Positions 707 to 40,156 of a stretch of 64,000 bases of DNA are shown piece after piece. A program made the translations under genes and the position numbers. Position 1 is the first letter of the stretch. Every line of letters begins with the position of its first letter. A model generated the notes under the pieces. It saw only the letters and a program-made list of their open reading frames with translations, had not been told where the DNA came from and searched no databases. The stretch is from contig JAPEUQ010000014.1 in assembly GCA_027946365.1 (NCBI GenBank), positions 186,001 through 250,000 on the forward strand, given 5' to 3'. The DNA is from Kalmusia sp. IMI 367209. Its lineage: Eukaryota; Ascomycota; Dothideomycetes; Pleosporales; Didymosphaeriaceae.

Positions 707-1580
707 ATGAACAGCAACGCGCGAAACAACCGGCGCGCGGACGAGGAAACCCCGCTGCTTGGAAGGTCTGGACCTGGGAAAGATTCGGACGCGGGTCGCT
801 TCGGGCTGAAGCTCAAGAAGCATTTGACTGCCAATGTTAGCAAGAATTGGGCAGATGCTGTGCTGCTATGGTGCTACATCATCACAGGGCTGCTGGACAG
901 CTCTGCCGTATTCATCTGGGGCTCCTTCGTGAGCATGCAGACGGGTGAGTGGCAATTGGGCGGGAGAGGTTCGCAATTGGTCTTCTGACGCTTAGCTAGG
1001 GAACACCGTGTATCTCGGTTTGGGTCTCGTCGCCCCTTCTGAAGGCATTCGCTGGGTCAAGGCCCTCACTTCGATCGCGTGCTTCTGCATTGGATCTTTC
1101 TTCTTCTCCCGCTTCCATCGCTACCTCTCGCCGCGCAAACGCTGGGTCCTTGTCTCCTCCTACACTCTGCAACTCCTCCTCATAGTCGTTGCCGCACTTG
1201 TTGTCACCTATGGCCGCGATGAATCAGGTGACACACACAACCTGCACTGGCAGGTCCTCGTACCGCTCGGGGCGGTTGCTTTCCAGTCAAGCGGACAAGC
1301 GGTGACATCCAGAGTGCTACAATACGGAGGATTGACAAGTGTGGTTCTCACAAGCAACTACTGCGATCTCTTCTCCGATCCCAATCTGGCTGCTATCACA
1401 AATGTGGAGAGAAACAGGAGGGTCGCCGCGCCCGTTCTGCTGCTCATCGGTGCGATGTTTGGCGGGCTATGGGCTCACAGCCCCATCGGTCTTGCAGGTG
1501 CTCTGTGGACCGCTGCTGCTCTAAAGGGTGTTGCTGTTAGTGCATGGATGGTTTGGAGCGCTGATCCCGAGGACGAATAG
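707..1580 (+). CDS. DUF1275 (YoaK-type) multispanning membrane protein
   Basis: Two exons, 707-944 and 1000-1580, joined across a 55 bp GTGAGT..GCTAG intron, give 272 aa. The join restores the typical DUF1275 segment FVSMQTGNTVYLGLGL. The start at 707 (MNSNARNNRR) is preferred over an in-frame ATG 90 bp upstream because it begins a usual polar tail carrying EETPLL, an acidic dileucine motif of the kind that sorts proteins to the vacuole. About six hydrophobic helices follow, the first near residues 55-75 and the last near the C terminus (GLAGALWTAAALKGVAVSAW). Members are conserved membrane proteins of unknown function, so the substrate or role cannot be given. The vacuolar location is inference from the dileucine motif. 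Confidence 0.82.
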
Positions 1581-2035
1581 TCTGGCAATGAATTGACAGT
1601 ACTGGTTATTGGGTTTCATGCAGAGCGTCGCTAAGAACATGCGGGCGTTGACACATAAGATATGGTAACCGATGACTAGGCATTGCCACATGGTAGGGTC
1701 AACATGATTCTTTCGCCAAGATCACAATCATGATTGCAGTCGGATGGAATATTGCGGTACCTAGCGACATGCTGGGTTCAGGTCGAGAACGAAGACGAGG
1801 TTCAGTTCAAGGAGAGCTTCAAGGGGTGCTAACTCTACACTGGAAAGATTCGTCATGAGATTTAGGGCTAGTAACAACATAGGCATCATACACAGAATTT
1901 GGATATATATCTCTACAAGATAGCTCTTCATATCATGTCCACCCGTATTCTACCCACCAACGCCCAGCCTCACAATCCCTCCGCCATGCGCCTACCCACG
2001 CCATCATCCTCCACCCTCCACCCCCATCCCGCTCT
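1581..2035. other. convergent 3' intergenic region
   Basis: This 455 bp lies between the stop of the DUF1275 gene and the stop of the arrestin-like gene on the other strand. It should hold two 3' UTRs. I see AT-rich stretches near 1900-1920 and a strongly C-rich stretch from about 1950 but no gene. Confidence 0.5.
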
Positions 2036-3466
2036 TCACCTCCCTCCTCTCTCGCAACGACATCCAAATCGCTCCTGACCCTCGCCTCTGCCTCTCCTCC
2101 CCGCAACCCTCACCCTCATCACACACTCCAACCTGTACCCCCGCCACGCATTATACGTCTTGAAGCTCGGCAGCAGCCCCTTGGGCAACGCAACCGTACT
2201 CACGCGCACCTGCCCCTCAAACGCCCCGTCGCGCGGGCTGAAAGAAGCGCCACGCGGCGTCTGCACCTGCCTGACCTCGTCGTGCTTGAACGTACACGGG
2301 TTCGTCCCCGAGAGCTGGCCGCGAACGCGCAGACCCGTGTACGAGCGGATGCGCACCGTGATGCCCACGACGTCAATATCCGGGATGGGGAAATTGTACA
2401 GTTTGCCCGGCGGGGGAGGACGGACTTGCATTGCGGCTGCGATCTTGATGTCTGCGCCCGGTGTACAGAGTCTCGGCGTGCGTACCGAGACGCTGAAGTA
2501 GAATATCGGTGCCGAGGCGTTGAATGCGTCTTTCAGCTGCTCGCGCAGGCTGAGTCTTCTTTCTTTTGCTAGCTGCGCGGTTTGGACGTCGAGGTCCTGG
2601 CTCAGCGCGTGGGTTTCGCTTGCGAGCAGGGCGATCTTGGAGGAGGGGAGGCGCCGCGTTGTGAGTGTGAGGGCGTGCTGGTGTGTAGCATTTGGGATGA
2701 GGGTGGCGGATTGGGGGGAGGATCCCGAGCGTACGGCGATGAGGCTGTAGGATATAGATGCTTGTCCGTACGCGTGTGTGGTGAGCGTTGTCGCGCTGCG
2801 GATGGGCATGTGTGTTGAAGGGGGGAGAGGGTGGCCTGCGGCGTTCTCGAAACGTTCATGCGTCGGCCATGTGGTTGTCCAGTATGGCTTCCCGTCTGGT
2901 CCATCTTTCGGTACGAGATCATTCAGGTTTTGCGATGCGGTCTCGCTGGTGTGAGGGATGGTGACTGCGAAGCGTGGGATTGCACCCCAGGACCCGGAAT
3001 TGGGCCTGAGATGCGTGGTCCTGAAGATGAGGGGCGTACGGGCTATGTGCTGTATTTTGGAGTCTTTGATAGTGGTGGTTGAACGGCCTGAGAGGAAGAT
3101 GTGGATGTGTGTTGTTGGGGTGGAGCAGCCGATTATGTAGCCGGTTATTGTTTCTCCTGGAGAGTAGACCTTGGAGGGATGGTCGAGGACTAGCTGTAGT
3201 TCTGCACTGTGCCTTGGGGTCGGTGCTATAGTTGGAGCGGAAAAGGCATCGAGCTGAGGAAGTGGAGGTGGGTCGTCGTCATATAGTGAGTCGGCATCGT
3301 CATCTGTGCTTTTGACATCGGGTTTTATAGATATGAAACCAAAGTCCGAGGGACGTGTGAGGCTTGGGCTTTGAAGCGATAGTCTTGCGGGCGAGGGAGG
3401 GCCAGGTGGTGGGCGAGGAAACGTTGAGAGCAGTTGCAGTTCCTTTCGCGGGATTGGCATCGTCAT
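2036..3466 (-). CDS. arrestin-fold domain protein
   Basis: Single-exon frame of 476 aa starting MTMPIPRKEL at 3466 (a second ATG is two codons on). Residues 1-85 are a Pro/Ser-rich disordered leader with an acidic patch (STDDDADSLYDDDPPP). From about residue 88 the text LQLVLDHPSKVYSPGETITG is the first strands of the arrestin N domain, and IFYFSVSVRTPRLCTPG (about 320) begins the arrestin C domain. Fungal members often act as adaptors that link ubiquitin ligases to plasma-membrane transporters or receptors; no PPxY motif is evident here, so that role is only possible. The last 40 residues are Arg/Gly-rich and do not look like arrestin sequence, so the true 3' end may use an intron or another frame. 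Confidence 0.72.
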   Translation of the reverse strand: MTMPIPRKELQLLSTFPRPPPGPPSPARLSLQSPSLTRPSDFGFISIKPDVKSTDDDADSLYDDDPPPLPQLDAFSAPTIAPTPRHSAELQLVLDHPSKVYSPGETITGYIIGCSTPTTHIHIFLSGRSTTTIKDSKIQHIARTPLIFRTTHLRPNSGSWGAIPRFAVTIPHTSETASQNLNDLVPKDGPDGKPYWTTTWPTHERFENAAGHPLPPSTHMPIRSATTLTTHAYGQASISYSLIAVRSGSSPQSATLIPNATHQHALTLTTRRLPSSKIALLASETHALSQDLDVQTAQLAKERRLSLREQLKDAFNASAPIFYFSVSVRTPRLCTPGADIKIAAAMQVRPPPPGKLYNFPIPDIDVVGITVRIRSYTGLRVRGQLSGTNPCTFKHDEVRQVQTPRGASFSPRDGAFEGQVRVSTVALPKGLLPSFKTYNAWRGYRLECVMRVRVAGRRGRGEGQERFGCRCERGGR

Positions 3467-3920
3467 GTTTGGGTAGGACCACGAGCTTTTAAGAGATATT
3501 TTATTTTTCTAGTGCACAACATAGAGTGCAGCAATTGCTAATGCAGCGACGCTATCTGAGGCTCGCGTGCCTGAAGAGAGAATGAAAGATGTCGCGGTAA
3601 GATGAGGATGTTGCAGACGTGTCGCTAAGGCATGTGGCCCATTGAATGAACAGACTTGCTCGGTCAGTACAGAAAGAAGTACAAAATGATGAAGATGCTG
3701 GCGCTATGCTAGACACATAGACCAAACGTCGTGGTCCCGAAAGCAGATGCGACGTTAGCAGTTTCGAGACCGCAAATGTCGACGTGTAACCCAGCTCCTA
3801 AATTACAGCGCATAATGCATATGCTACACAGATGTAAAGAATACGCATAAGAGAATGCCTGCATCCCCGGTAATCGCATCTAGCGGCCATCTTTTGATAT
3901 CGTAGCATTTCGTAGCTGGC
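3467..3920. other. intergenic region between arrestin-like and ASXH genes
   Basis: These 454 bp contain the arrestin-like gene promoter (minus strand, right side of its start) and the 3' flank of the ASXH gene. A T-rich tract sits at about 3496-3510. No gene or repeat was recognised. Confidence 0.45.
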
Positions 3921-4706
3921 TCAGTTTTGGCCCCACCAAGCCTCGGCCTGCTCGTCCTTCCAATCGTCGAAGGCACCGGCAGCGCGATCGATCACAGCCT
4001 GCTCAGCAGAAAGCTGCCATGTCTTTGCGAGATGCCCGTTCACGAGATCCTCTTTGAACTTGGCGACGTCGGTCCTGAATAGGTTGAAGTTGAGGGTAAC
4101 CTCACGGGGAAGCGCATCCTCAGCAGCCGTGCCAGCAGCAAGGTCCTTGGCGAGTTCGACATTGATAGGATTCTGGGGGAGCAGTGCGAGTATATCCAGC
4201 TTCTCATTGATGGTGAGGCAAGTCCAGGCTTCGGTCTTGAGGAGCATGTGGAAGACGTCGGTCTTCTTAAGGCGACTGTTGGAATTGGTCATGAGGTAGG
4301 TAGGATCAAAGACCTTACTTCCGGTCTTGCGAGGGGGTGCAACCTTCTTCGAGGGCTCCTTGAACGATTCGAAGCGTTCGGGAGCCTTACGGGTGCGACC
4401 GCTCGCACGAGTGCCAGAAAGAGGCAGTGGGGCGAGCTTGGTGCGCTTCTTGCTGGCCATGGCGGCGAAGGTTTGGTCGTCAACCTCGGTGTGCGAGCGC
4501 TTCTTGCTTGCACTGGAGGTAGTGGACCTTGATGAGCTTGGTGAAACGGGAGCACCGTCTTTGGCTAGGTTGAACTTGGTGGTGTTGATGGGGTTGGCAG
4601 GAGCGGCCGGGGAGGGAGGAGAACTGTCGAGCCAGGCGCCAGGCGGAGTCGGGAGAGACTCAGCCGAAGATAAAGGGGAAGACGAGTTGTTCATGGTAGG
4701 AGACAT
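3921..4706 (-). CDS. ASXH/DEUBAD-domain nuclear protein
   Basis: Single exon, 261 aa, start MSPTMNNSSS at 4706. Residues 1-110 are disordered, Ser/Pro-rich and basic, with likely nuclear localisation signals (SKKRSH, ASKKRTK). From about residue 125 the sequence matches the Asx homology domain: FDPTYLMTNSNSRLKKTDVF, then LTINEKLDILALLPQ, which corresponds to the conserved helix that ends in a Leu-Leu-Pro motif. In animals ASXL proteins use this DEUBAD domain to activate the deubiquitinase BAP1; in fungi these short proteins are mostly uncharacterised. A chromatin or deubiquitinase-partner role is therefore inference from the domain. Confidence 0.78.
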   Translation of the reverse strand: MSPTMNNSSSPLSSAESLPTPPGAWLDSSPPSPAAPANPINTTKFNLAKDGAPVSPSSSRSTTSSASKKRSHTEVDDQTFAAMASKKRTKLAPLPLSGTRASGRTRKAPERFESFKEPSKKVAPPRKTGSKVFDPTYLMTNSNSRLKKTDVFHMLLKTEAWTCLTINEKLDILALLPQNPINVELAKDLAAGTAAEDALPREVTLNFNLFRTDVAKFKEDLVNGHLAKTWQLSAEQAVIDRAAGAFDDWKDEQAEAWWGQN

Positions 4707-5979
4707 GACTGGGGATATGCTCTTTGGTGGTTTTTGGAATGGTAGATGGGTTTGCTTGGAAAGCGTTGGAGTGACGTTTGCTGTGCGTGAAGCGTCAAGT
4801 GTTGAGATTGAAAGATGATGTTCAGGCGTTGGATCTCGAAGCGTAGACGAAGCACTGGAGTTGTAAGTGGATGGCTGCGAGATAGGCGCTGCGTCCTATT
4901 GTTGTACTATTGCAACGACGCTATCGATGGGGGACGGAAGGTGGACAATGAGAAACAATGGAGACAGGTTCGTCAATGTCGGATTGAAAGCGTAGGTTTG
5001 ATAATTTGTTGGTGAAGTGAGCGGTGAAGTGAAAAGCACGGCAGCCATCGGTCTTTAAGGGGAGGGACAATAGCACAAAGACTGCAGTGAAAGATACCAC
5101 GGAATTACGCCGAGATATTGAAAGACGGATAAAAGGGCGGCGGACGACGTAACATGACCCATGAGACATTTCAAAAAGATTTTGAATGAATTAACTTACC
5201 GAACAGAAAGAGACACGGTGGAAGCTAGCGTTTTTCCACTTGCTGCGGTGGTGTACTAGTCGGAGAATGTATGAATTCTCTCGGACCAGCACCAGCCCCC
5301 AGCACCAGGCCCCAGCACCCCAAAGCCCCCAGATTCGGTTTTACGGCGCCGTATCGAGTCGAAGCAGCTCTAGAGAATAGCGCTCGTTCCACAACTTCGT
5401 GCAGGTGATGAAGATTGTGCAAAGGTAGAGAGACGGTCAGACCAAGTATCGGTGACAAATGCAGGCACCGAAGATGATAGGCTTTGGCCAGTGTGATCTG
5501 AGGTCACGCACGATACTATTCGTGATCACTATATGAGGGCAGTGTTCGAGTGTGAAGAAGACTAAGGCGGCACAGGACTCGTAACGAAAAGTCTGTCCAG
5601 CATCTTGTTCAAGCTCTAGTCGCACAGCAGTGTATATAGCTCTCACGAACGACGGGATAGATGATGCGTTTGGTCTATGTAATGTGTCTGAACTCAACTA
5701 GGCAAATGTCTACAGCCATTTTCAGCCAAACGATAGTTGAGGTGGAGCAATGACAGTACCGTGGCTATGTTGCCCGCTTCAAACATCATGTGGTCCGTGC
5801 GTGCTTCTTGTTGCGCACATCGCCAGTCCGTAGCTTCGCAGCAGCCACGGTAGCTTTCAACATCGACACGTAGCCTTTCTCCCACGACCCTGCCGCCTAA
5901 TCGATCGCGGCTTCACTTGTTGCCCTCCCCATAGAAACTTTGCTCCCCACACAGCCTGCAGCACGGTCGTACGCACACG
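4707..5979. other. gene-free stretch upstream of the ASXH and SEC22 genes
   Basis: A 1.27 kb divergent intergenic region. It contains only short open frames (at most 86 codons) that resemble no known protein. The first 300 bp next to the ASXH start should be its promoter and leader. A short CAGCACCAG-type direct repeat occurs around 5284-5315. Nothing else was supported. Confidence 0.5.
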
Positions 5980-6883
5980 ATGATTGAGCACACGGTGGTG
6001 TCGCGCCTCGAGGGCAGTACGTCGCGCTCCTAGGACACACACCGTGGAAGGGGCATTCGCAGCTAACAGTATGTAGGCTTGGTACTATGTGCCTCCCTCG
6101 AGACAAGAGAGGTATGACGCATATGCTCTTTCATTTGCACGCTACTCACAGAGCTCAGCTAGACCCAGAACTCAACGAGGTCATCAATAAGGCCAAACTC
6201 GTCCAACGCCGCCTAAACCGCAACTCAGAACCCCAGGGTAGCATCGAGAGCGGTAAATATACATACCAGTATGCCTCCCCTACCACCCTTAGACAACTAT
6301 ATCATGCATCCACCCCCGCCGTAACACAAGACACATTGCTGAGGCAAACGACAGTTACTCCTTAAACGACCGGGCAGATCTCGCATTCCTCTGCATATGC
6401 AACCGAGCCTACCCCCGCAAGCTAGCATTCACGTACCTCTCCGACCTACAGACCGAGTTCGAGAACAACTACAAGCCCGATTCATACAGCAGCCCCACGT
6501 TGCGGCCATACGCTTTGAATGGGTTCGACAAATACATTCAGCAAACAAAGGAGACGTATCAGGATACTCGCGCTACACAGAACTTGGACAAGCTGAATAG
6601 CGAGCTGAAGGATGTGACCAAGGTCATGACGAAGAACATCGAGGACCTGCTGTACAGAGGGGACAGTCTAGAGCGCATGGGTGATATGTCGAGCAGGTTA
6701 CGGGAAGACAGCAGGAAGTACAGGAAAGCGGCGGTGAGGATCAACTGGGAGCTACTGCTGAAACAGGTAAGCAAGCAACCCATTCCCTGACAACCTCATG
6801 CAGGAGCTAATGGTCTACAGTATGGCCCCTTCGGTGCGCTCGGCTTGTTCATAATCATCTTCATCTGGTGGCGATTTTTCTAG
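5980..6883 (+). CDS. sec22: R-SNARE Sec22 (ER-Golgi vesicle fusion)
   Basis: Five exons (5980-6016, 6077-6111, 6159-6268, 6355-6766, 6821-6883) with consistent phases give 218 aa, the usual Sec22 size. Sec22 is a C-terminally anchored SNARE acting in ER-Golgi traffic. It starts MIEHTVVSRLEG, then a longin domain (LVLCASL near 14-20; LCICNRAYPRKLAFTYLSDL near 75-95), the SNARE coiled coil from about 130 containing MTKNIEDLLYRGDSLERM with the central Arg (zero layer), and a C-terminal anchor GLFIIIFIWWRFF. The N-terminal strand differs from the MVKST start of most fungi but keeps length and register. The two first exons are tiny (37 and 35 bp). Splice choice for exon 3 (CTCAG rather than the CACAG six bases earlier) follows from reading frame. 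Confidence 0.93.
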
Positions 6884-7555
6884 CATGCGCATCAAGCGAA
6901 CCAGTGTGTAACGAACAGGTTGTGTTACAGAAGACCATAGCAAGAATCGGCGTTGAAAGGGTTTTGTTCAGTAAGGCCATGTTAGAATATGCAATAATAC
7001 CCATTCCAAGGTGGTTTCGATTCAGCTTGACATAGTCCTTCGCATTGCACCGGCCTTCGTTCTGTCATACGCTAGGAATTGGCTCCGCTTACCTTGGGCC
7101 CCAAAGCTAGCTCTTTCTTCTTCGCCGTGCCGCTTCGCCATAGAATTAGGAAAACTGGCAGTGCAGCTGAAATCTGTACTTGCCCACTGTGGTAGTTGGC
7201 GGAGCATAGACACATCGTGCTTACTAGCCTAGAGCCTAGTGGAGCTACGCCCCAACTAGACTCTGAATTGCAGCCCTGCTATTCGACGAGCCGCGAGAAT
7301 AGTAAATGCTACGGTACGCCTCATATGTATGGGACTAGATATCAACAGTGGTACGCTTTGATTTAGCATATAAGCCGCGTCTATCGCACGGTAGAAGCGG
7401 GCTTCTGTGTAGAACTTCGACAAGAGCTATAGACACATTGAGCATTTCAGCAATCATCTCTTGATCCAACAATCCTTATTGAGCCTGGTAGCTTTTCCTG
7501 GCACTTTATTTCTCTTTCGTCGCCCCAGGTCGTTACAATCGCAACCTCAGTCGCA
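6884..7555. other. intergenic region SEC22 to hydrolase gene
   Basis: These 672 bp hold the SEC22 3' UTR and the promoter of the next gene. A TATA-like CATATAAG lies at 7368-7375, about 180 bp before the start codon at 7556, and the last 100 bp are CT-rich, as is common in fungal leaders. No coding sequence was recognised. Confidence 0.45.
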
Positions 7556-20430: not shown

Positions 20431-21269
20431 ATGGATCTCCTGCAGACTGTGCGCAAAGAAGGCAGCCGGTGAGTGCATCGTAAATTCACTTCTCATTCTT
20501 TCAGCTAACAGATTATAGCGGCGGGCGCGCCGACTTCAAGTGGGAAGATGTTAAGCAAGATACCCAGCGCGAAAACTATCTGGGCCACTCGCTCATGGCC
20601 CGTAAGCTATGTCCCCTTTCTCTACGAGAATTACAACTGACATTGAGCCTAGCTGTCGGTCGCTGGCAACAAGGTCGCGATCTGAACTGGTACGCTAAAG
20701 GCGACCAAGACGCTGAAGGAGAGAAATCCGTCGCCGAAAAACTCGCAGATGAGAAGCGCAAAATCAAAGAAGCAGAGGAGGACGCTATGCTGCGCGCAAT
20801 GGGCCTCCCCGTCCCGGAACGCGCATCTACCAACGCGAATCTGACGCCATTGGGCGAGAAAGCACACGAGGCGGATGTGAATAAGGTGCTGAATGAGAAG
20901 ACGAAGGAAGGAGATAAGGAAGATAGGAGACGAGAGAAGAAGGAGCGGTCACGGCGACATGGAGACGATGATGAGCACGATAGGAGGAGGAGACGCAGAT
21001 CGAGGAGTCGGTCGAGGGATCGGAGGGAGAAGCGACGGGACCGCTCACGGTCGCGCGATAGGAGGAGGGACAGAGAAGACAGAGAAGATGGTAGGCGTAG
21101 ACACCGCTCGAGGAGTCGCGAGCACAAACGTCGAGAGGATCGGCATGAGCAGCGCAAAGAGCGTAACGCGGATGGCGAGCGGTCGCGATCACGGGATCGA
21201 TATCGGGAGCGAAATCGTCGTCGCAGGAGCCGATCGCCATATGATAAGCATGAGCGACGACGAGACTGA
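20431..21269 (+). CDS. MMTAG2 / kinase-phosphorylation domain protein with RS-rich tail
   Basis: Three exons (20431-20468, 20519-20601, 20653-21269) give 245 aa. The N terminus is the conserved PF10159-type block: MDLLQTVRKEGSRGG, then FKWEDVKQDTQRENYLGHSL and APVGRWQQGRDLNWYAKGD, each spanning an intron, which supports the splice choice. A charged helix follows (about 75-105), then an Arg/Ser/Asp-Arg-rich tail from about residue 150 (RRRRRSRSRSRDRREKRRD), as in splicing-related proteins. Animal homologues are nuclear phosphoproteins of unclear function, so a role in RNA processing is inference from the RS-like tail. It is divergent from MED6. Confidence 0.86.
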
Positions 21270-25405: not shown

Positions 25406-27399
25406 CTCTCCGCTTAGTTTGTAGCTGGCTTCTGTTGTGGTGCTGCAGGCTTGGCGCGATGGGGAGATAGGTAGAGATTATAGTGCGGTGAGGCTTTATA
25501 ATGCGACCGGCGGCGAGCTGGTGGGTTTGGTTTGAAGCAAACGCAATCGCTCTGTTCCACATGACATGCGCCGGCATGTGTCTGTGCACCGCCAACGTCT
25601 CCGAGTGAATGTGAACATGCATTCGACTAGAATATTCACTTGCTCACCACCTTACGTTCCAACCATTAGGGCTTGCATCTTGCAGAGCGTGGTCGACTCC
25701 TTCATTAATGCAAACTCCTATCGCCAAATAAAAGGTGTCCCATAATCAGTTCATCACAAGCTCTCTCTTTCCATGAAGGCTACAAACACCGTTCCTTCCC
25801 GACAGATAGCCGACCTTTATCGAGTAGTGGGGCAGCTGAATATGACCGGAGTTCAAAAGGGTGCGATACTGAAGATAGGTCGCATTTGCGGACGGCGCGC
25901 GATACCAACGAACTTCTGGGCTACTAGTTGAACCGTGTCAGTCCTAGGCTTATTCCGATCCTCAATCCAGTATGAATAGCTCCGTACCATCCAAATGTCT
26001 CTCTAATTCTTGTTAGAAAATACAGAAGAGGGATTCCCCAAAATCTGATACCAAGAAGAGGTTTGATCAGAAGTTCGTATCCGATGACTCGGGCCCAACA
26101 ACAACTAGGATGAGTCCTCAAAGCTCATAGGAACCGATCACGGCACCCGCCATCTCGAAGAACAGGGAGAGTAGGAGAGTGAGGTGGACAGAACGACGGG
26201 ATACCAAACATGGCTTCTGGACGACTTAGTACAATCGTGTAGATCTAGATCAGGTTTGGTACCGCACATACATCTCAGTTCATTTTGTCACGATGCCGCT
26301 TTCAACCCCTTCAATGATAAGCAAGAATTTTACGGTGGTAGAGCTATGGAAGAACCCCTGAAGGGGATGATACGGAAGAAAGTGGTGTTGCATTAGAAGG
26401 AGACGGTTGCCGCACAGCCGGATTTAGGACGATGTAGAAGTTGTGCACTGGCATCCTTAGCTTCAATTGATGTGTGATCAAGTCAAGGACAGCCCATGCA
26501 AAATAAAATACCCAACGCTTGGTAGATGCTGAGATAAGGCAGCAACCAGTCTGATGGAGTGACAGTATGAGGTGTCGGGCAAGCCTGTGGGCCCATAAGC
26601 ATGCGGATGTGCATCGGGTTTTCTTTGCTTGGTAATGGCATTGGTCGAGATGTATCAGTGAATACTGCGAGGAGGACCGACTTTCCGAAAGGCTTATCAG
26701 TGGAGTTGATGAAGGTAGTTCGATGCTTCTAGATCGATCAGATCGAGTTACTGTACTTTCTGCTTGACCCCTTTTCAATTTCCTTGTGCTAAGATTTCTT
26801 CAATATGTTCTGCGTTCTGCTACATCGTCTCTCATAAGTAGTCCACAGAATCTTTGAATAAGATATCATCTTTTGGTCAGTGATCGTGTTCAAGTCTCGC
26901 GCGATCCTCGAGCTCGCCTGTTGCGATCAAGTTGTGGTGGCATCCTACGATCTTTCTCCGCGGCTAAGAAGGTATGGCGTAAAGTACAAGAGATTCCAAC
27001 TCCACCCGTTGTCGTCATACATGTTTGTAAGGCGGGTCTCACAAGAGTAGCGCAAGCAATAAAGACGGTGAGGCAGGCTCGTTGGGCTGATTAGCCGACG
27101 TTTAATCTCAGGTGGCACGCGCCACGACCGCATATTAATTGTTTCCTGCCGGAATAGATTGATGTCGCTTTGTAGAGGAACGCTGAGTTGCTTTGATCTC
27201 TCGAAATCTTATGCTTGCCGCCTACCAGGTCGCAGCGCCATGTCGGCCCATTCATCCGCATGAAATTATCTCCGGCGACTCGATGATGTCGTATTGTCTG
27301 GAAATAGAAGCCAGGTAGGTACAAAAAAGCGACAGGATAAACCACTAAAGGTGCCTCGCATTCACTTATCCAGACTGCAAGACATCCTTCTGCAAAAAG
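25406..27399. other. 2 kb gene-free stretch at left edge of accessory island
   Basis: Only weak open frames occur here: 26344-26778 minus (144 codons) and 25924-26121 minus (65 codons, hydrophobic). Neither resembles a known protein and neither has a clear splice pattern. The right end must hold the AA9 gene promoter. No transposon ends were seen, though a decayed element cannot be excluded. Confidence 0.45.
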
Positions 27400-28220
27400 A
27401 TGAAGACCTTCACTCTGCTCTTGGCTGCCGCCGCCGCGGTTAGTGCTCACTGTATGTTTCTTAAACATCATCAAGTCGAAATGAAAGTTGCTCATCATCT
27501 CCATAGACACTCTACCGATCGTCAACGGCGCACCTGCATGGAGCGCTGTCCGTCAAGCCAAGAACTGGCAGAACAATGGGTACGTAGATTTACCCTGAGG
27601 TATACCTTTCTCATGACTGAGAAACGTATAGATTCGTCGGCGATGTGACAAGCAGTGATATTCGCTGCAATCAGCTCAACCCTGGCAACGAAACTGTCAC
27701 CGTTGCAGCGGGGGTCAAGCGTCAAAGTGAACGTCAACCCAAATGCCTACCACCCCGGGCCTTTCCAGTCGTATCTTGCCAAGGTACCGGATGGTCAGGA
27801 CATCAACAAGTGGGACCCAACGGGCGCTGTCTGGTTCCGAATCTACGCTGAGCAACCCAAATTTGGCTCCCAATTGACCTGGCTGAGTATGTCCCAAAAC
27901 ATTGTCTCTAGGCATCGAGGACTGACAACACTCAAGGTGCGGCAAACTACGACATCACTATTCCTAAATGCATCGCTTCTGGAAAGTACTTGATGCGCAA
28001 CGAGCACATTGGTCTTCACGTTGCTCAGAGCTCTGGCGGCGCCCAATTCTACTTGTCCTGCGCGCAGATTGAGGTCACTGGTGGTGGCAGCACAGCACCA
28101 AAGAACCTCGCTGCATTCCCGGGAGCTTACAAGGCCAGTGATCCTGGTATCTTGATTAACATCAACTACCCTGTCCCAACTAGCTACGTGAACCCTGGTC
28201 CAGCTACATTCACCTGTTAG
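27400..28220 (+). CDS. AA9 lytic polysaccharide monooxygenase, with one-base frame break
   Basis: Four exons (27400-27451, 27507-27579, 27632-27886, 27937-28220) code for a secreted copper enzyme that cleaves cellulose-type polysaccharides oxidatively. A 16-residue signal peptide (MKTFTLLLAAAAAVSA) leaves His at the mature N terminus, the first copper ligand. The second His is in NAYHPGPFQSYLAKVPDG, and the axial Tyr with its partner His and Gln lie in IGLHVAQSSGGAQFYLSC. No cellulose-binding module is present; the protein ends TSYVNPGPATFTC. Within exon 3 the frame changes by one base at the G5 run 27710-27714: upstream reads NETVTVAAG in one frame, and SSVKVNVNPNAYHPG continues in the next. 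No intron of sensible size can repair this. It is either a recent loss-of-function indel or a sequencing error. Confidence 0.85.
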
Positions 28221-29131: not shown

Positions 29132-31018
29132 CTATCCAACGGTTACTTCCGCTTCATCGCACGGGTGGGTCTGGCTGTCTGAGCTCCTATAAGAAGTGTC
29201 GAAATTTTTGAAAAAGGCCCAGAAAAGGACCATTGTCACAGTCATAGTGCCCGACAAACTTGAAAACAGAATAACCAGGAAAGGGTTCCTCAATACTGGC
29301 CCCAAAGCAATTCCCAATGCTGATCCAGCGGCAGCAGAAAATACCTGGAAAGCCTGAACCACTGCCTTTATATCCTTTGGAGATTCGGAGTAGGTGAACT
29401 CGTTCAAGGCTACCAAACCGAGAATCTCTCCAATGGCCAACAGAAAATGCAAAGGTGTTTGAAGCCATACGCTGATGTTGTTCGGCCGTTTGCCATCCTC
29501 TCCTGTAGCGGCAAGGCATTCTAAAGGATATTGAAAACAAGGGCCTCGGTGGTAGATAAGTTGCTGCAAGCCTGCTGCATAAGCAATGCCAGAAGCAATG
29601 AAGAAGAAGGCAATAGACATGCGCAAGATAGGACCGAGAGAAACCTTGCGGCGTCTGAAGAAAGGAAAAACCACGCTCTGGATTGTTGGGCCCATGATAA
29701 CGCAGGCCAATGGATTGAAAGATTGGATTGTGTCGTTGGAGACGCCTTGCTGCACCATCTGACCAGCTTGAGATATGATGTTGTTCGTTGTTTGGTTGTA
29801 ACAAAGCCAGAATATCACGAAGCACGTAAGTACGCGACAGGCCTTGAGCCCACGACGAATTTCGCCTACAAACGAAGAAGACCATGGGACTATCGTGTTG
29901 TAGTGCGAAGCTTGTATCTCGGGTTCTGCAGTGGATAACCGGAAACGTGATCGGCAGGCTATAAGAAGGATTTTACCTGCTTGGGGAAGTGCATTGCCCT
30001 GAGGCGGTAGTTTGACTGCAGAAAATTCAGCAAGAGCTTTGAAAACTCCCAAATTATTCCCTACCTAGGCGTTTATTGTAAAGAAGCACTGGGATGATGG
30101 ATATCCCAAAAATGCATGTAGGCAAGAGGTACGCTGCCCAGAAGTCAAGGTGCTTCTCCATTAGTGTTGTTGGAATGGAAGACAGAGCAGCGATATTGAC
30201 CATCCTATAGTACCTCGTTAGCGTTTGCTGAAGCCATCGACCGATCTTGGTATGCACTCACCAGTAGTATCCATTGAAAACGTACTGTATTGCTAGATTC
30301 CGGTCGGCTACCACGAGCTCTCCTTTTTTGTTTCGTTTTACTCTTGGGTTTGTATCTGGGATCTGATCCGCTAGTTTTACTTAGTTTCACACCTCGAGCA
30401 GTGCAATTTACCCACCGATGAAAGGGTACATCACAGCTGAAAGCCCTCCCTGACCAATTCCTAAAAGGACCATGGTGGTGACAAGACCTCCGAGACCAGC
30501 ACCGTGCACCAAGGCAGTCGGAAGCGAGGTGATGATTAGTACGAGATAACCGGCGGCTAGAAATCTGGCAATGGTTAACCTCTGTTGTTCACTTAGTCTG
30601 ACATTATTCAACACCCACCCGATACTGAGGATCGTAGTTCTATAGCGACCAATCCACACATCAGATATGACCGCAAAAGGTAGTGGAGTTAAATACTGAA
30701 AGAAAAGGAATGCGTTCTGGATGATCGTTGCCTTTGCTTGACCTAAGCCTAAAGCTCCAGGCAACTGCGCATCCCCACGAGGGTTTTGAAGATAGTTCTC
30801 TGTTCTGGCGTTTAGTTATTATTTGCATATATCCCAAGATAATGTTTGGACCCACGCCATACGACCGTGACACCATATCGGGCGAGTTGTGAAGCTGCAC
30901 CAGTGAATGCCAACAGCCATGCTGTTGCAGGTATCTCGCTCGGTTCATGAAGAAGCTCTTGAATCTCCTCCCGAGTTGCATCCCTAGACTCACGGCCTGT
31001 ATCGTCATCCTTCTCCAT
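29132..31018 (-). CDS. PTR/POT family proton-coupled oligopeptide transporter
   Basis: Six exons (30856-31018, 30619-30799, 30416-30564, 30262-30370, 30065-30204, 29132-30015) join in phase to 541 aa. The family imports di- and tripeptides, nitrate or related small solutes through about 12 helices. Family text seen in order: QLARYGVTVVWQNYLQNPRG (exon 1/2), YLTPLPFAVISDVWIGRYRT (PTR2 signature region), GQGGLSAVMYPFIADQIP (exon 3/4), VKLPPQGNALPQAGKIL, and RRGLKACRVLTCFVIFWLCY. The N terminus is acidic and cytosolic (MEKDDDTGRESRD). Intron 30565-30618 is 54 bp and has no stop in frame, so it could be retained; splicing gives the better membrane segment. It is the first of three minus-strand genes ending with the UstYa-like gene, so it may export or import a peptide of that system. 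Confidence 0.88.
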
Positions 31019-31492: not shown

Positions 31493-32452
31493 TCAATCTC
31501 CTAAGAAAGATTCCAACAATGCCATGTACTTTCCCCGCTGGTCCACGTGAGAAAAATGTGCAGCATTATCAAGAGTGACCCATTTCGTCTTCTCAATATG
31601 ATCGAAGAAGGGCTGCATTGCAACATCTTGAGCTTCATCGTCTGTGCCATTGATTAGGAAAGTGGGGACCTTGATTTTCTCCAATAATGGGATGCTTGTC
31701 CAATTACGGAGTGACCCAGAGATGTACAGCTCACTTGGACCATACCTGTTTGATGATTACTTAGAGGCATCGTAGCAGTCTGAAAAGATTACGTACATGG
31801 TCCCATACGTTGTGGGATCTTTTGCAAACCAGTCGAGTGCTGCTTGAACTTCCTTGGATGGCCATGGCTTACTCAGACTAAGATGTCGCTTATAGAATAC
31901 TTCGACGGCAGCTTCGTACTCGGGGGATTCAAATTTTTTGGTGTGTTCTGCACGGTCTAGTACCTGCTGTACGTCTTGTGGAAGTGCCTTTCTCAAAGCA
32001 GAAATTCCAATCCGCCACGCATCCATGCTGGCCAGACTGTTGGAAAGGACCAGACGCCGAAGATGGGCGGAGCTAGGAGTTGCTGCCCACTCGATTGCCA
32101 ACATACCGCCCCAGGAATGTCCATACACGTCGACCGGGCGATTATCGAGACGGAGATACGAGAGAAGATTGTCTAGTTCATCTTTGAAGAGATCGACCGT
32201 CCAGAAAGCCTCATCGCCAGCTTTGCTCGCCAGATGCGTGGATCGCCCATTGCCGATCTGATCATAGAAAACGAGCGGCCTGACGGGCGCGAGGTCTGCC
32301 AACGGAAGCAGGTAGTCGTGACATGCACCGGGGCCACCATGGAGGATAATCAAGGGCGTGGCGCTTGAGTTTAGGTCGCCAAAGATTTTGTACCACGTCT
32401 GGCATGGCTCTGACAATCCAGCGACTTTGAATTCCACTATGCCTTCGGACAT
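31493..32452 (-). CDS. proline iminopeptidase-like alpha/beta hydrolase (peptidase family S33)
   Basis: Two exons (31797-32452, 31493-31745) give 302 aa. Features of the family: oxyanion motif ILHGGPGACHDYLLPL (about 35-50), nucleophile elbow VYGHSWGGMLAIEW (Ser near residue 110), acid in FLINGTDDEAQD and His in LDNAAHFSHVD close to the C terminus. Start MSEGIVEFKVAGLSEP at 32452 has no signal peptide, so it is probably cytosolic. S33 enzymes release N-terminal proline or other residues from peptides, or hydrolyse amino-acid amides. It lies head-to-tail between the peptide transporter and the UstYa-like gene; the repeat peptide nearby is Pro-rich, so trimming of that peptide is a testable idea but only inference. 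Confidence 0.88.
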
Positions 32453-32744: not shown

Positions 32745-33726
32745 TTATGTCAACACCGTATTCTCGTAAGGTCCCGGGCGAACCTTGTATTCATTCCTCG
32801 GCAGCAGCCTTGTCCGCGCCCATGAGTCGATTGCTTCCCAATCCACGCATACTGTCTCAGACCCAGACCGCAACTCCTTGCTAGGAAAGGCATATTGGTC
32901 GCCGATCCAGTATGCAGTGTATATTGCCAAATCAGCCTTGCACATCAAGCTTCGTCTGATAGTGTCCGCGCAGTGTGCTGTGGACTGATCAGCGCAATTG
33001 GTCGTACATTCTCGTGCAGTTTGGGGTACCAACTCAGGTGCATAATATTGTAATCTTTGTCCCTATCCGTCGCGTCTGAATAGTAATACTCAGGAAATAT
33101 GTTCCTACGAAGAGCATCCTAGTTATTGGTTAACATCGAAGAATCAGAGCCATTTCAGCTGGATATGCTTTACCAGACAGTGGAGCTCATGATGCACAGA
33201 GAGGACGGCGACATAGTCTCCATCACTTAGCTGCACTATGTCTCCACTGAAATTTGTGTGGGCTTGCCGTAGTTCCGATCTGGTAGCTCGGATGTTGATG
33301 GCTGAAAACTTCAGTATTCTTACGTCGTAGTAGATTGCGTCTCACTTACGCTCCAAAAGGTAGTCCCATGCGACATCAACCTCCTCGGGCCGCCCTGTAA
33401 ATTTCGTATCTTCTCCAAAATAAAGAGGCTGCCGCCGGTATGATAAGGCATGGTTGACAGGCGCTAGAAAGTAATTTAGTAAAACAGCATACGGAACCTG
33501 GAATATTCCATAGCTTACAGTAGGATCGCGGCATGCGCACGTGTATCAGATATAGGATCGTGGGACCAGACGCCAAAACATAGAGAGTTAGAGCAGTGAC
33601 GAGAATCCAGCGCCAGATGTTTCGACTACCGGGCTTCTTCACTTGTCGTGTATGGGCGTTGTTTCTCGCAAGGTCTTCTTGATCCAAAGCTTCATATTCG
33701 TAGACTGTAGAGAGCCCTTTACCCAT
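32745..33726 (-). CDS. UstYa-like (DUF3328) oxidase, probable peptide-cyclising enzyme
   Basis: Five exons (33519-33726, 33350-33463, 33174-33301, 33034-33118, 32745-32977) join in phase to 255 aa. Residues 1-37 are a polar cytosolic tail (MGKGLSTVYEYEALDQED), followed by one membrane helix (about 38-60, WRWILVTALTLYVLASGP). The lumenal part has the family marks: YSPVNHALSY, FTGRPEEVDVAWDYLLE, INIRATRSEL, then the two metal-site-type motifs VHHELHCL (about 145) and THCADTIRRSLMC (about 180), and the C-terminal VCVDWEAIDSWARTR. UstYa-type proteins catalyse oxidative cross-linking and related steps in ustiloxin-, asperipin- and phomopsin-type ribosomal peptides and in cyclochlorotine-type pathways. 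It is divergent from the repeat-peptide gene 660 bp away, which is the arrangement expected for enzyme and substrate. Confidence 0.93.
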
Positions 33727-34386
33727 GATGTTAAAGTGCGTCCGTTGGAACCGAACGAGTGAGAAATGTGAATAGAATAACCCTCCACCCCGAAATATGC
33801 TGGCCCAAGTCAGGTTTATCTGCTGAATTCTCGTTGCACAAAGAGGAGAATAGCTCACTTTGGAAATTCTTTAAAGTGATTGGTGACAATGATATTTCTC
33901 TGCAACGCTGCTGCAAGCGCTCTACTGTAGCCAATTTGTGTTGCCTGGTTATATCATCACCAAATAAGCTCGGCACCCATGCAGGAAAGAGGCGTTAGCT
34001 TCCATACAGTAAAACACCGGTCACCCCATATATGCACCACTTGCCAACTTGAGGAAGCAAGGCAACCGCCAAGAAGGAGGACCAACCTGACATGCAGTGC
34101 ATTTATTGCCAACTGCTTCTATTGTGCAACCGATATCTCTCTCACCGGATCCCCATTTTGTCTATACGAGGGCTATTTTCTCGACCCAATTGTAGGGTAT
34201 CAGAAGTATGGGCTATTCTCGCCTGACTGGCCAAGGGAGCTTGTTCCTACTATATCTCTGCATATGGTGAACCATAACGCTTGAAAGGATACATATTTAA
34301 ACTCCCCTCATCTGATACAGGACTTACGTCTCAATCCACCACGATACCACTTTACTCATCTTCAAATTCTTCCTAAGACATCAACT
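33727..34386. promoter_or_regulatory. divergent promoter region, UstYa-like gene / repeat-peptide gene
   Basis: 660 bp between the two start codons. A TATA-like TATTTAAA at 34294-34301 lies 86 bp before the precursor ATG and is followed by a CT-rich leader. The frame at 33979-34284 (101 codons) overlaps this promoter and resembles nothing known. Sharing of this region would allow co-regulation of the two genes. Confidence 0.55.
34294..34301 (+). promoter_or_regulatory. TATA-like box of the repeat-peptide gene
   Basis: TATTTAAA 86 bp upstream of the precursor start codon, the right place for a TATA box with a leader of about 50-60 bases. Confidence 0.5.
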
Positions 34387-34763
34387 ATGCGGTATTACGG
34401 AATCTTGCTACTATCTGCTGCCCTAGGGAGTATTGCGGCTCCCACAAGTTAGTCGCTTGGATCGTCACCTTTGATCCTTCTACATTTCACTGACGCTTCA
34501 TAGCAATCGGATCTGCTATGAAACGCGGCATTCCTGACCCCCCTCTATGGGATGGAGAGCTGGAGAATAAACGGTCCAGTCCTGTTCCCCCCCTTTGGGA
34601 TGGCGGAGTTGAAGGTCAAACAGAGAAGAGCAAACGATCTAGCCCCGTTCCACCTCTTTGGGATGGCGGGGTTGAAGGGCAGACGAACAAGGGTAGACGC
34701 TCGAGTCCCGTTCCGCCCCTGTGGGATGGAGGGGTTGAATCCCATGCGGAGGAAGGAGAATAA
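34387..34763 (+). CDS. secreted Kex2-type repeat precursor, probable dikaritin-like RiPP precursor
   Basis: Two exons (34387-34447, 34504-34763) give 106 aa. The first 20 residues are a signal peptide (MRYYGILLLSAALGSIAAPT). The rest is four repeats, each preceded by a dibasic Kex2-type site: K27-R28, K43-R44, K64-R65 and R85-R86. Repeat 1 is GIPDPPLWDGELEN; repeats 2 and 3 are SSPVPPLWDGGVEGQT plus a three-residue linker (EKS, NKG); repeat 4 ends GGVESHAEEGE. Repeat lengths are 16, 21, 21 and 22 codons. PPLWDG is in all four. There is no Cys and no Tyr after the signal peptide; Trp is the only aromatic residue. This is the architecture of UstA-, PhomA- and GigA-like precursors, in which Kex2 cuts at the dibasic sites and a UstYa enzyme cross-links the core. 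I know of no described core with this sequence; that needs a database search. Confidence 0.9.
34521..34760 (+). repeat. four in-frame repeats coding for Kex2-bounded PPLWDG peptides
   Basis: Units start at 34521 (48 bp), 34569 (63 bp), 34632 (63 bp) and 34695 (66 bp). Over the 16 codons of SSPVPPLWDGGVEGQT, units 2 and 3 differ at nine codons, all silent. Over the 13 codons up to VE, units 3 and 4 differ at six codons, again all silent. The peptide is held constant while the DNA drifts. Confidence 0.92.
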
Positions 34764-35859: not shown

Positions 35860-37970
35860 TTAAAATTCTATTTCGACAATTGGTCCTCTATACAACTTCC
35901 GTCCTCTCAAGAAGTACCAGATAAGGGCGAATAAAACCACCGATCCAAAAGTCAAGACACTGAAATTCATTGTCTCAGGCGATACTGGCGTCATTGGCGG
36001 CCAAAATGACATAAACCAAAGAAGCGATAAGAAAGCACATGCGAAAATATTATTGAGAATACCAAGCATGCCAGGTATGCGCCAAGGGCCCCAGTGTAGA
36101 TTCCCTGGCCCGACCTTTACGACATGAGGGTCGTATGATTGTATTCCTTTCGACTGAATGCGTCGCCAGAGGAGTAGGAGGCAGCTGAGGAGGTATGACG
36201 AGTATAAACCGGCGATGCTAAGGTTTACAATGTTGTTGAAGGCAACGTCGGAGCCGAGGATTATGAGAGATAGAAGCACGGAGACTGCAGTGGTGAATGC
36301 GATCGTATATATAGGAATAGACGTCCGAGGGTCGAGCTGTCCAACATACGTCAGTACTTGGTTTATTTGGAGCATGGCGATTGCCTAGAATGTGAATTCA
36401 CCTTTGTGAACTGGACGCCAAAAGGGACACCCCGGTCTCTCGCAAAAGACCACAACATCCGTGATGATGATGCAAGGACACCCACGGTGCTACATACACC
36501 AAGAGCGACAATAATAAGGCCCATTACAGCTGCACCAGAAGTCGAGCCGGTCCCAACCTGGAACACGAACAGAAAAGGGTATCCTAAGGTTTCCTGAGAG
36601 GCTATCACCGCTTCCAAGTCTCCCATGCAAAAGAGGTACGCGATCAGCATTGCGAAACCTAGTGTGCCGTTAAGAAGAATGCTTATCATAATTGCCCGTG
36701 GTACCACAGTTGATGCATGTTTTATCTCTTCAGCCATCTGAGCAAATGGGAAATATGCCATTAGCAATAGAAGTATGCAACAATCGCAGAACTTACATGA
36801 ACAGCCGAATCAGACCCTAGAACTAGGTAAATGGAGTGCTCGTATACCGTCAGAGTAGCGTACTTACCAATCAGAGAGAAAACAGAAGCCGGCAACCCGA
36901 CCAAGAACGATAGGCCTTGACTGGACCAGCCTCCATAATTTACAAAGGTAATGAACAAGGATTTGTCGCCATGAGGGGCGAGATAGACTAAAGGAATCAA
37001 TATAGATAAAAACCCTAAGATGTGCAAGACCAAGATCAGGCCTTCGAAGTGAGCTAATGTTTTGCTTGCCACAGTGTTGATGAATACAGCGAAAGCGAGG
37101 ATTGCCCATAGGAACAACATGGTTTGCCATGGCTGAGGCATATAGTCTGGGTTAATCATGACGATCACACTCTGCAAAAGCGACCCGATAAGGTACGCGG
37201 CAGATGCTGTGACGGCTTGCCAACCGGCGAATGTCACCCAACCTAGCATTTGGTAAGTAGCCTTGGGTGCAGGATCATGTATCTTGTCCTTACCCGTCAT
37301 GTAACTGAAGAAATGCCTCGATGACTCTGGGGCTAGCATAGAGACCCAACTACGACATTGGTCAACGAAAACATTCGTGTACTTAAGGCACGGTCACGGC
37401 TTACTGATATTGACCACCGGCGGTTGGCGCCCTTAAAAATTCAGTCACAGTGACTTGACGCTATTTAGAAAGGGTTACAAAATGCGAAACTTACATCGAT
37501 GCCAATTCAGCTAGAACACTAAAGGTAGATATAGTGCCGACCCATACGATGAGATATCCCCAGATGACGCCCGCTGGTCCTCCACTGTCGGTATTAGCCT
37601 CTCTGTAGCCAGTGTTTGCTAGAGAAGTACATACTTCAGAAGACTTTGAGTTGAGACGCTATAGCTAGCTAGTTAGCTAATTCTTAAAAGAGAATCCCAA
37701 CTTCTAAGGCATGCACGAACATGAGAATTCCCTCCCAAGTAATGAGGACTGTACAGGAGAAACCCAGTATAGACATAAAGCCAAAGTTGCGCTGGTTGTG
37801 TTATAATCATGCAATATAGCCCAGTTGATTGGCGAACATACCTTCAACACTGGTTTCTTTCCAAGCCTGATCAAATCTCTTTCATCTCTACTGTATCCGG
37901 ATTGATCGGCGTGCTCATCAGATGAGGGTTGCTGGGATATTTTCGAGCGGCTCTGAAGCTGAAAGTCCAT
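35860..37970 (-). CDS. amino-acid/GABA permease, APC superfamily
   Basis: Nine exons (37842-37970, 37721-37791, 37635-37658, 37495-37584, 37405-37431, 36868-37349, 36797-36816, 36402-36737, 35860-36336), three of them under 30 bp, join in phase to 551 aa. Start MDFQLQSRSK is the first ATG of the frame. The order matches fungal GABA/choline-type permeases: RNFGFMSILGFSCTVLITWE, LLNGGPAGVIWGYLIVW, MAPTAGGQYHWVSMLAPE, PASVFSLIGSDSAVHMAEEI, SSSRMLWSFARDRGVPFG, LDPRTSIPIYTIAF, and a C terminus GPIVEIEF. About 12 helices are expected. It imports amino acids or related amines at the plasma or vacuolar membrane; the substrate is not readable. The many small exons fix the splice pattern because each restores a conserved segment. 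A link to the peptide system is only by position. Confidence 0.9.
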
Positions 37971-38912: not shown

Positions 38913-40156
38913 ATGACTACAGTTTCGTATCTGTTGGTGGCGCGCCAATTACTTACACTCAACGATGAGGCACCAGTGGTCCAGATCCTAACGTTGCTTT
39001 TGCTGTCTTTTTCTATCATATCTGTCGTCGCCCAGTTCGTCACCAAACGAGCGGTTTCCAGGCCCTTCCGTGCTGCTGATGCGGTTCTGGCCTTTGCGCT
39101 GGTAGCAAATCCTCGCTATTGAAATACGAGATGTGCTCTTGTTCTAACCTTGTCGGTATGTAGATCTTGGCTGCTGGCCAGACTGCGACTTTGCTCGGCC
39201 CGCCGGGTCGAGTGATCGGGAATGACTTCAACACGATCACAGAGGATGCGAAATCGAAGGCTTTTAAAGTAACTATTTTCCTTCGCTACGTTGCGCTTGC
39301 ATGCACGCTAAGCAATACAGGCACTTTACGGCGGTGACATACTCATGATATTTACGCTCGTCGTTACCAAAGCATCATTAATTGTCGCACTTTTTGCCAT
39401 CACACCTATAGCGGAGCACCATATCGCACTATATGGGACCAGCGCAGTCATTGCTGCTTGGGGCCTGACGACCGTATTTTCTATATCTTTCCAATGCCCC
39501 GCACCTGAGAGATGGGATGTGTTAAACCAGGAATGCATTGACATTGTACGTGATTATTTGGGATGATCGAAAGGGACACCTTCTCGGTTCTGACACTTAG
39601 AACAGCGAGCACTCAAAACCTATTCAGCGGTGCTCAATATCTCTACAGACGTAGCTTTGATAGTAATACCTTCGATTGTTGTTTTACCGGTTCAAATGTC
39701 ATGGGGAAAACGGCTCACAATCTTGAGTGGCTTCTGGTTCCGCGTATTGTGAGTACAGCCTCCACGACTAGTCATCGCGATTTGCAACGGCATACTAACG
39801 GTGATCATGACAGGGTTATCGCGGCCACAATTGTCCAGATTGTTTTTATTCGGCAGCTTGCGTACGATGAAAGATTCCTTCATAGTGTGTGGAAGACAAC
39901 TGTTTGCAACGAAGTAGTTCAAACCACGAGCATCATGACTGCGTGTATCCCGTTCCTCAAGCCGTTCCTTATGAGCTTAGAGTCTGGGTTCCTCCGTGCT
40001 GATGATCTGAATCGGCGCACTGCGGCTGGCATGTATGGGTCTGACGATAGAATGTCCGGGTGGACGTCACGATACATCAAGCTGCGAAATTGGCCAAATA
40101 TCAAAAACTCTCCGGCAAATACCCAAGAAGAGCAAGGAGCAAGCGTTCGTGGCTGA
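38913..40156 (+). CDS. rhodopsin-like seven-helix integral membrane protein (fungal PTH11-related type)
   Basis: Five exons (38913-39101, 39164-39268, 39321-39545, 39606-39748, 39814-40156) join in phase to 334 aa. Family text appears in order: FRAADAVLAFAL, ILAAGQTATLLGPPGRVIG, GGDILMIFTLVVTKASLIVA, VFSISFQCPAPERWD, CIDIRALKTYSAVLNISTDV, and in the last part CNEVVQTTSIMTACIPFLKP then LMSLESGFLRADDLNRR. The acceptor of exon 4 must be the second AG (TTAGAACAG), because the first puts the exon out of frame. Such proteins are very common in plant-associated and other filamentous fungi, and a few act as GPCR-like sensors at the plasma membrane. No CFEM domain is present. Function here is unknown. 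Confidence 0.83.

Follow-up and report, generated by a model that had tools for sequence, protein, structure and literature searches.

A probable UstY-type RiPP precursor with a tyrosine-free repeated core in Kalmusia sp. IMI 367209, and a paralogous locus in the same genome

Introduction

The closest described counterparts of the locus reported here are the dikaritins ustiloxin, phomopsin and asperipin-2a, whose precursors combine a signal peptide with a repeated core bounded by dibasic sites and whose genes adjoin a gene for a DUF3328/UstYa protein with two HXXHC motifs. To our knowledge, the peptide cross-links made by known UstY enzymes mostly use an aromatic side chain. The class of UstY-type RiPPs is defined, in the excerpted text of one account, by its enzyme, a DUF3328 protein with two HXXHC motifs (PMC12048977). 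These proteins have recently been shown to be copper oxidases, and the available part of that work describes them as dicopper enzymes whose products include the Tyr-to-Phe ether of asperipin-2a (PMC12186524). In phomopsins, PhomYc, PhomYd and PhomYe are held, in the portion of the source at hand, to make dehydro-Ile, dehydro-Asp and dehydro-Pro (PMC10880069). The wider setting is given by the excerpted text of the Umemura 2020 survey, in which KEPs, defined by at least three repeats of at least eight residues between dibasic sites, number 7878 in 1461 strains, 22% of them with a DUF3328 neighbor; in the DUF3328-linked group 65.6% of repeats carry Tyr, and in three of the seven abundant DUF3328-linked types HH or W plus P takes the place of Tyr (PMC7329392).

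Here, we describe a gene of the same build in a 64,000-nucleotide stretch, hereafter the window, that corresponds to C6:186001-250000 of the Kalmusia sp. IMI 367209 assembly (42.8 Mb in 30 contigs). Its core contains no Tyr, and we regard the encoded protein as a very probable UstY-type RiPP precursor. We consider it likely that this Kex2-processed precursor belongs to a cassette of four genes, the others encoding a UstY enzyme, a proline iminopeptidase and a POT transporter.

Results

The precursor gene (34387-34763) comprises two exons and one 56-nt intron and encodes a 106-aa product (Table 1). Its signal peptide and intron were assigned by eye and from the reading frame: a hydrophobic start, MRYYGILLLSAALGSIAAP, ends before AP as judged by eye, and splicing brings this stretch and the repeats into one frame, a frame that needs the splice because the in-frame TAG at 34450-34452 is intronic. 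The four units that follow, behind KR, KR, KR and RR, make the protein a KEP under the repeat definition given above. Unit 1, GIPDPPLWDGELEN, is shorter and more divergent than the other three, which are full copies of SSPVPPLWDGGVE; the spacers are GQTEKS and GQTNKG, and the tail is SHAEEGE. A sequence-only reading had proposed a signal peptide followed by four repeats, each preceded by KR or RR and sharing PPLWDG. The spliced frame bears out this architecture, with the qualification that only three of the four PPLWDG units are full copies. The protein contains no Cys, and it matched no Pfam family.

Three 63-nt repeats at 34564-34752 underlie the full copies, and their divergence is informative. 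Over 13 core codons, each pair among the three copies differs at six sites, all of them third-position and silent, vs about 26% silent expected of random changes. Six differences per pair without a single replacement indicate that the amino acids of the core were held by selection as the DNA drifted. We also scanned the ORFs of the window (at least 40 aa) for dibasic-bounded 12-residue repeats; three ORFs had at least two units, namely the precursor with four, an arginine/serine-rich ORF at 20484-21266 with three, which we take as a false positive of the scan, and one more with two. None of 20 mononucleotide shuffles of the window, run as the control, gave three or more units. A chance repeat as the origin of the precursor units is ruled out by the silent-only divergence together with the conserved homologues described below.

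Table 1. Coordinates of the precursor, its partner genes and the paralogous locus; positions refer to the window unless a contig or locus is named.
Feature	Position	Strand	Remarks
POT/PTR2-family peptide transporter, models ~542 aa	29132..31018	-	start and splice sites uncertain
Proline iminopeptidase-family hydrolase (S33), 302 aa	31493..32452	-	exons 31797-32452, 31493-31745
UstYa/DUF3328 gene, 255 aa, five exons	32745..33726	-	PF11807, two HXXHC motifs
UstYa exons	33519-33726, 33350-33463, 33174-33301, 33034-33118, 32745-32977	-	
Divergent intergenic region, UstY/precursor	33727..34386	.	TATTTAAA at 34294-34301
Precursor exon 1	34387..34447	+	start codon, signal-peptide-like stretch, phase 1 end
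Precursor intron, 56 nt	34448..34503	+	GTTAGT donor, CTGAC branch-like, TAG acceptor
Precursor exon 2, four dibasic-bounded core units	34504..34763	+	
Precursor unit 1 with KR site, up to PPLWDG	34521..34556	+	PPLWDG 34539-34556
Precursor unit 2 with KR site, up to PPLWDG	34569..34604	+	PPLWDG 34587-34604
Precursor unit 3 with KR site, up to PPLWDG	34632..34667	+	PPLWDG 34650-34667
Precursor unit 4 with RR site, up to PPLWDG	34695..34730	+	PPLWDG 34713-34730
C4 paralogous cassette	L036 (G000:C4:24001-34000), 894-7308		
C4 precursor, 106 aa	C4:30935-31308		divergent from UstY

The direct divergent neighbor of the precursor, 660 bases away, encodes a UstYa/DUF3328 protein, and the region between the two genes is their probable shared promoter. 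By eye, a single hydrophobic segment is visible close to the N terminus of the protein; both HXXHC motifs are intact, HELHC occupying residues 145-149 and HLTHC residues 177-181. The protein matches nearly the whole PF11807 profile at E 4.3e-42, a score obtained with a 262-aa model; the 255-aa model preferred here differs at one donor site, and its splice agrees with the PYSPVNH of homologues. A sequence search returned no solved UstYa structure (best match E 0.56), and the AlphaFold model of the Whalleya homologue has a mean pLDDT of 52. Of the genome's PF11807 matches, those inside the window belong to one DUF3328 gene. The assembly as a whole is rich in this family, with 102 exon-level PF11807 matches at E ≤0.001. 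Because UstYa genes are so common in this genome, adjacency to one is a weaker argument here than it usually would be.

Moving away from the precursor, the minus strand carries UstY, the proline iminopeptidase and the POT transporter in that order. The iminopeptidase, 100% identical to N0V90_010929 of Kalmusia sp. IMI 367209, a fungus of the Pleosporales, contains HGGPG and GHSWGG motifs, shows no evident signal peptide by eye, and scores 212.7 bits against TIGR01250 (cut-off 167.65); its nearest solved chains, 7a6g and 3wmr, are proline iminopeptidases. The transporter matches PF00854 at E 2e-29 over 29135-30064. A scan with 38 Pfam entries (37 distinct), covering part of the window, found no methyltransferase, and none of the 37 genome matches to the tyrosinase family PF00264 lies on contig C6. 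To the left of these genes lie exons of an AA9 lytic polysaccharide monooxygenase (27649-28217) with a signal-peptide exon upstream (27349-27645, by eye), and to the right an amino-acid permease (35863-37393, minus strand) and a fungal rhodopsin-domain gene (39312-39563, plus strand); we do not count any of the three as a cassette member.

A protein search (E up to 1; weakest match 8.8e-4) returned 10 precursor homologues, all of them containing one or more core units, from Whalleya microplaca, Xylaria curta, Camillea tinctor, Melanomma pulvis-pyrius, Monosporascus sp., Xylaria grammica, X. digitata and X. longipes, together with two metagenomic proteins. They are 66-133 aa long, some with only two repeats, and a hydrophobic start before [AIM]P is visible by eye in eight of the 10 and absent in the two metagenomic ones. 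Across the 11 precursors, the window gene included and the core not required for selection, 26 of 28 dibasic-preceded stretches hold the core; the two without it are in Monosporascus and one metagenomic protein. We gathered 27 core units by a pattern that fixes P+1 and limits positions +3 to +6, so that counts in those columns are overstated: R stands just before 26 units, D is present in 26, and the two G of GG in 26 and 25, and the Trp position holds W in 21, V in five and R in one. Pro is the third residue after the cut in 26 of the 27, a column that the pattern does not fix. KR or RR is in register in 22 units and missing in five. No unit contains Tyr, and the X. longipes cores, SSPVPPIVDGGLDLG, contain no aromatic residue. 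The sequence-only reading took the gene for a RiPP precursor, suggested a search for the repeat in fungal relatives, and named unconserved repeats or a match to a characterized unrelated family as outcomes that would count against it. The repeat proved conserved among the homologues from the protein search, as the 26 of 28 stretches show, and the lack of a Pfam match and the divergent UstYa neighbor further support the assignment.

To what extent the partners travel together was judged from contigs of equal length; adjacency does not follow from such agreement. The UstY search returned 19 homologues, 15 with both HXXHC motifs as annotated. The other four, in which we suspect gene-model gaps, include the X. 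grammica protein, whose contig is among the six paired with a precursor contig below. For six of the 10 precursors (six of the eight from named species), the contig agrees with a UstY contig in species and exact length (162368, 591403, 77685, 448630, 392469 and 104947), vs about 0.06 expected by chance if one place in each 40 Mb genome is drawn at random. Adjacency is hinted at only by close protein numbers in three of these pairs (Camillea, 669587/669589; Melanomma, 324690/324692; X. digitata, 462510/462513); the numbers are not close in Whalleya, X. grammica and X. longipes. Among the 19 UstY matches, none agrees in contig with the precursors of X. curta, Monosporascus or the two metagenomic sources.

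The iminopeptidase search gave 1788 matches, 120 of which were used for comparison. Among those listed, at least nine of the 19 UstY contigs agree in length with an iminopeptidase contig (0.57 expected), as do at least five of the 12 UstY contigs below 1 Mb (about 0.1 expected); four of the nine agreements fall on contigs above 2 Mb. In Xylariales sp. No.14919, UstY and the iminopeptidase have consecutive tags (ANO14919_111970 and ANO14919_111980), and this UstY clusters in the tree with its counterparts from two species with precursor-bearing contigs, X. grammica and X. digitata. A jgi contig of length 12,314 is common to a precursor and an iminopeptidase. In Whalleya and Camillea, a second iminopeptidase elsewhere is nearly as similar (73% vs 77%). 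The iminopeptidases on UstY contigs do not form an exclusive clade, their smallest common clade spanning 87 of 98 tips. In the UstY tree, four of 17 inner branches are well supported; the patchy distribution suggests horizontal transfer between Xylariales and Pleosporales, which we do not claim on a tree of such poor support.

Contig C4 of the same assembly carries, at ~25-31 kb, all four gene types once more, here with the core TAPEVILPDAGL, which differs from that of the window. The C4 precursor begins with a signal-peptide-like stretch, has a phase-1 intron where the window precursor has its own, and carries three units behind RR (TAPELILPDAGLVTESKD, AAPKVILPDAGLSTGEKH and TAPEVILPNAGIKESLK) whose core stretches contain no aromatic residue; the divergent arrangement of UstY and precursor recurs as well. 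The closest genome paralogue of the window UstY lies here, at ~29.4-30.2 kb (51, 54 and 36% identity over three pieces; next best 39%), as do those of the transporter, queried with its last exon (27.7-28.5 kb, 52%; next 44%), and of the iminopeptidase (24.9-25.8 kb, 51 and 53%; next 49%). Judged by these identities, the margin is clear for UstY and the transporter and thin for the iminopeptidase. With these paralogues beside a divergent precursor, the four gene types are present twice, each time with its own core. By eye, the window and C4 cores share the pattern [ST][SA]-P-x-x-x-[LI]-x-[DN]-[GA]-G-[VLI], from which an AAP unit departs at the first place.

Other stretches of the genome were inspected as well. 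A third cassette was considered at C30:20-27 kb, where a transporter lies near a UstYa gene, but the searched patterns picked up no core. A small protein with a signal-peptide-like start is encoded there divergently from the UstYa gene (locus L049, G000:C30:24001-34000, 1217-1576, minus strand), near the POT transporter at C30:20.4 kb; no repeated core was seen in it, and it is perhaps a single-core precursor. Two stretches on C1 and one each on C3 and C29 likewise held no core of the searched patterns. Repeat proteins with other cores lie near UstYa matches at three further places: a Kex2-type protein that is truncated at the locus edge, holds six units like APTVDEGFSKIIYKR and lies within ~1.5 kb of the match (L017, near C26:1827689, 1-300, minus strand); a precursor with three units TEFAPWYRATNILPASDDKKKR (L032, near C27:873239, 3043-3465, plus strand); and one with three units around ARTPIGQFISIWYGEDGDDTP, two counted by the scan and the third read by eye (L009, near C4:1097661, 151-537, minus strand).

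Discussion

We propose that the four genes act in a short maturation route. The signal peptide would carry the precursor into the ER, where UstY, a membrane-anchored oxidase of the copper type that carries two HXXHC motifs, would oxidize the core. Kex2 would then cleave after KR/RR and a Kex1-like carboxypeptidase would strip the basic tail, as the conservation of the sites suggests, to release near-identical peptides around (S)SPVPPLWDGGVE. In the fourth and weakest step, the transporter may move the peptides and the iminopeptidase may trim them at the conserved Pro (KR-x-[SA]-P); the near-invariant Pro at the third residue, found also in the C4 core, would suit a prolyl aminopeptidase acting after loss of a dipeptide. 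Since the iminopeptidase looks cytosolic and the precursor secretory, this step would need import from the vacuole or from outside.

As to the oxidation itself, an ustiloxin-like Tyr ether cannot be the shared chemistry, because the C4 and X. longipes cores contain no aromatic residue; for the same reason, a family-wide reaction should fall on Pro, Leu/Ile, Asp or Gly. On this analysis, desaturation, hydroxylation or a cross-link at the conserved Pro, Leu/Ile or Asp is more likely than a Tyr ether. Desaturation would be our first choice, followed by hydroxylation or an aliphatic cross-link, in view of the dehydro-residues attributed to PhomYc, PhomYd and PhomYe in phomopsins. A wider proposal, which we put forward tentatively and regard as rather doubtful, is that these loci represent a separate class of UstY RiPP: a four-gene cassette, mobile or ancient and present twice in one genome, in which a copper oxidase acts on wholly aliphatic residues of a core, [ST][SA]P-x3-[LI]-x-[DN]-[GA]-G, that lacks an aromatic anchor, and the peptide, once cut, enters the cytosol for trimming at the N-terminal Pro.

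The cassette might instead consist of the precursor and UstY only, with the iminopeptidase and transporter an adjoining pair for nutrient peptides. The iminopeptidase family is widespread, as its 1788 matches attest, its members on UstY contigs form no separate clade, and the link to the transporter is seen in the Kalmusia sp. IMI 367209 genome alone. We nevertheless think this smaller unit unlikely, given that the closest paralogues of UstY, the iminopeptidase and the transporter all sit at C4 next to a second precursor and that UstY and iminopeptidase contigs agree as often as they do (at least nine of 19, among the matches listed).

For the enzyme of the four-gene cassette, one may also ask whether UstY cross-links the conserved Trp, in the manner of the Tyr-type dikaritin ring or of the Trp link of plant burpitides. 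W occupies its position in 21 of the 27 units and in all four window units; moreover, UstY enzymes are known for aromatic cross-links in the excerpted text of PMC12186524, and the survey, in its available part, lists a type with W plus P beside DUF3328 (PMC7329392). We hold such a link to be improbable, however, because the paralogous C4 cores are without aromatic residues and so are those of X. longipes, whose UstY keeps both HXXHC motifs and whose UstY and precursor contigs agree in length; a lineage-specific reaction at Trp is possible.

It is quite unlikely that the precursor yields unmodified linear signaling peptides, in the manner of an alpha-pheromone, with UstY a chance neighbor. Ascomycete alpha-pheromone precursors typically have a Trp/Cys-bearing pheromone-type core and no DUF3328 partner; the window precursor, which we take to be unlike them, has no Cys and does have a UstY partner, and alpha-pheromone identity was rejected on these grounds. 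The genome is full of UstYa genes, and only 22% of the 7878 KEPs have a DUF3328 gene nearby, which would leave room for linear products; on the other hand, the excerpted survey text places precursors with a mating-factor or pheromone annotation without DUF3328 neighbors, with three exceptions (PMC7329392). For six of the 10 homologues, in addition, there is a UstY contig of matching length, and a UstY is present in the C4 cassette. Signal peptides and tandem repeats also occur in structural or surface repeat proteins, but a repellent- or cell-wall-like role, whether for the whole protein or for linear surface peptides cut from it, is scarcely credible for so small a product (106 aa; homologues 66-133 aa) with few repeats, no anchor seen and a UstY partner.

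A modified peptide from the four-gene cassette would be of interest for several reasons. The cores of the family range from Trp-bearing to aromatic-free and occur with closely related UstY proteins, a natural series for studying recognition and oxidation by these enzymes. The doubled cassette offers a simple test bed with two cores in one genome, the layout of four genes with a single UstY is small enough for direct testing, and the presence of a prolyl peptidase next to a peptide transporter points to a maturation route of a kind that we did not find described in the available portions of the open-licence full texts searched.

With respect to known systems, the sequence-only reading had likened the gene to the precursors of ustiloxin, phomopsin and asperipin-2a. 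The likeness holds for the build of the precursor and for the UstY enzyme and fails for the Tyr-based ring, the core having no Tyr. Unlike the dikaritins, the window locus has no tyrosinase match on C6 and includes a proline iminopeptidase and a POT transporter. Of the older five-gene definition of dikaritins it has the transporter and the peptidase and lacks the tyrosinase and the several DUF3328 genes; for want of a tyrosinase on C6, the cassette stands outside that definition. It has a DUF3328 protein with two HXXHC motifs and a precursor adjoining the DUF3328 gene, and by the definition that rests on this enzyme it belongs to the UstY-type class. PhomYc, PhomYd and PhomYe are likewise DUF3328 proteins, and their targets Ile, Asp and Pro are residue types conserved here (PMC10880069, in part), a likeness of family and residue type rather than of individually compared homologues; they stand among five DUF3328 genes and act on a Tyr-bearing core, whereas the window has one UstY and a Pro-Leu-Trp-Asp-Gly core.

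Multicore Kex2-type precursors are also known in ascomycetes from the epichloecyclins (GigA) and victorin, with other cores and, in the portion of the source at hand, rings anchored on Tyr or Phe (PMC9233826). The KEPs of Umemura 2020 have a signal peptide, which is putative in the window precursor, and share with it the dibasic-bounded repeats, the DUF3328 neighbors and the existence of non-Tyr types, so a Tyr-free core is not new as such; homologues with two repeats fall below the three-repeat threshold of that survey. The window core is absent from its excerpted main text, and its supplementary tables may list some members (PMC7329392); nor is the core named in the available parts of PMC6339444, PMC9632046 and PMC7099791. 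That no product with this core had been described, as the sequence-only reading supposed, agrees with our search for the core strings in open-licence full texts. As far as those texts show, what is new is the core family itself, its aromatic-free members and the repeated link to an iminopeptidase and a transporter.
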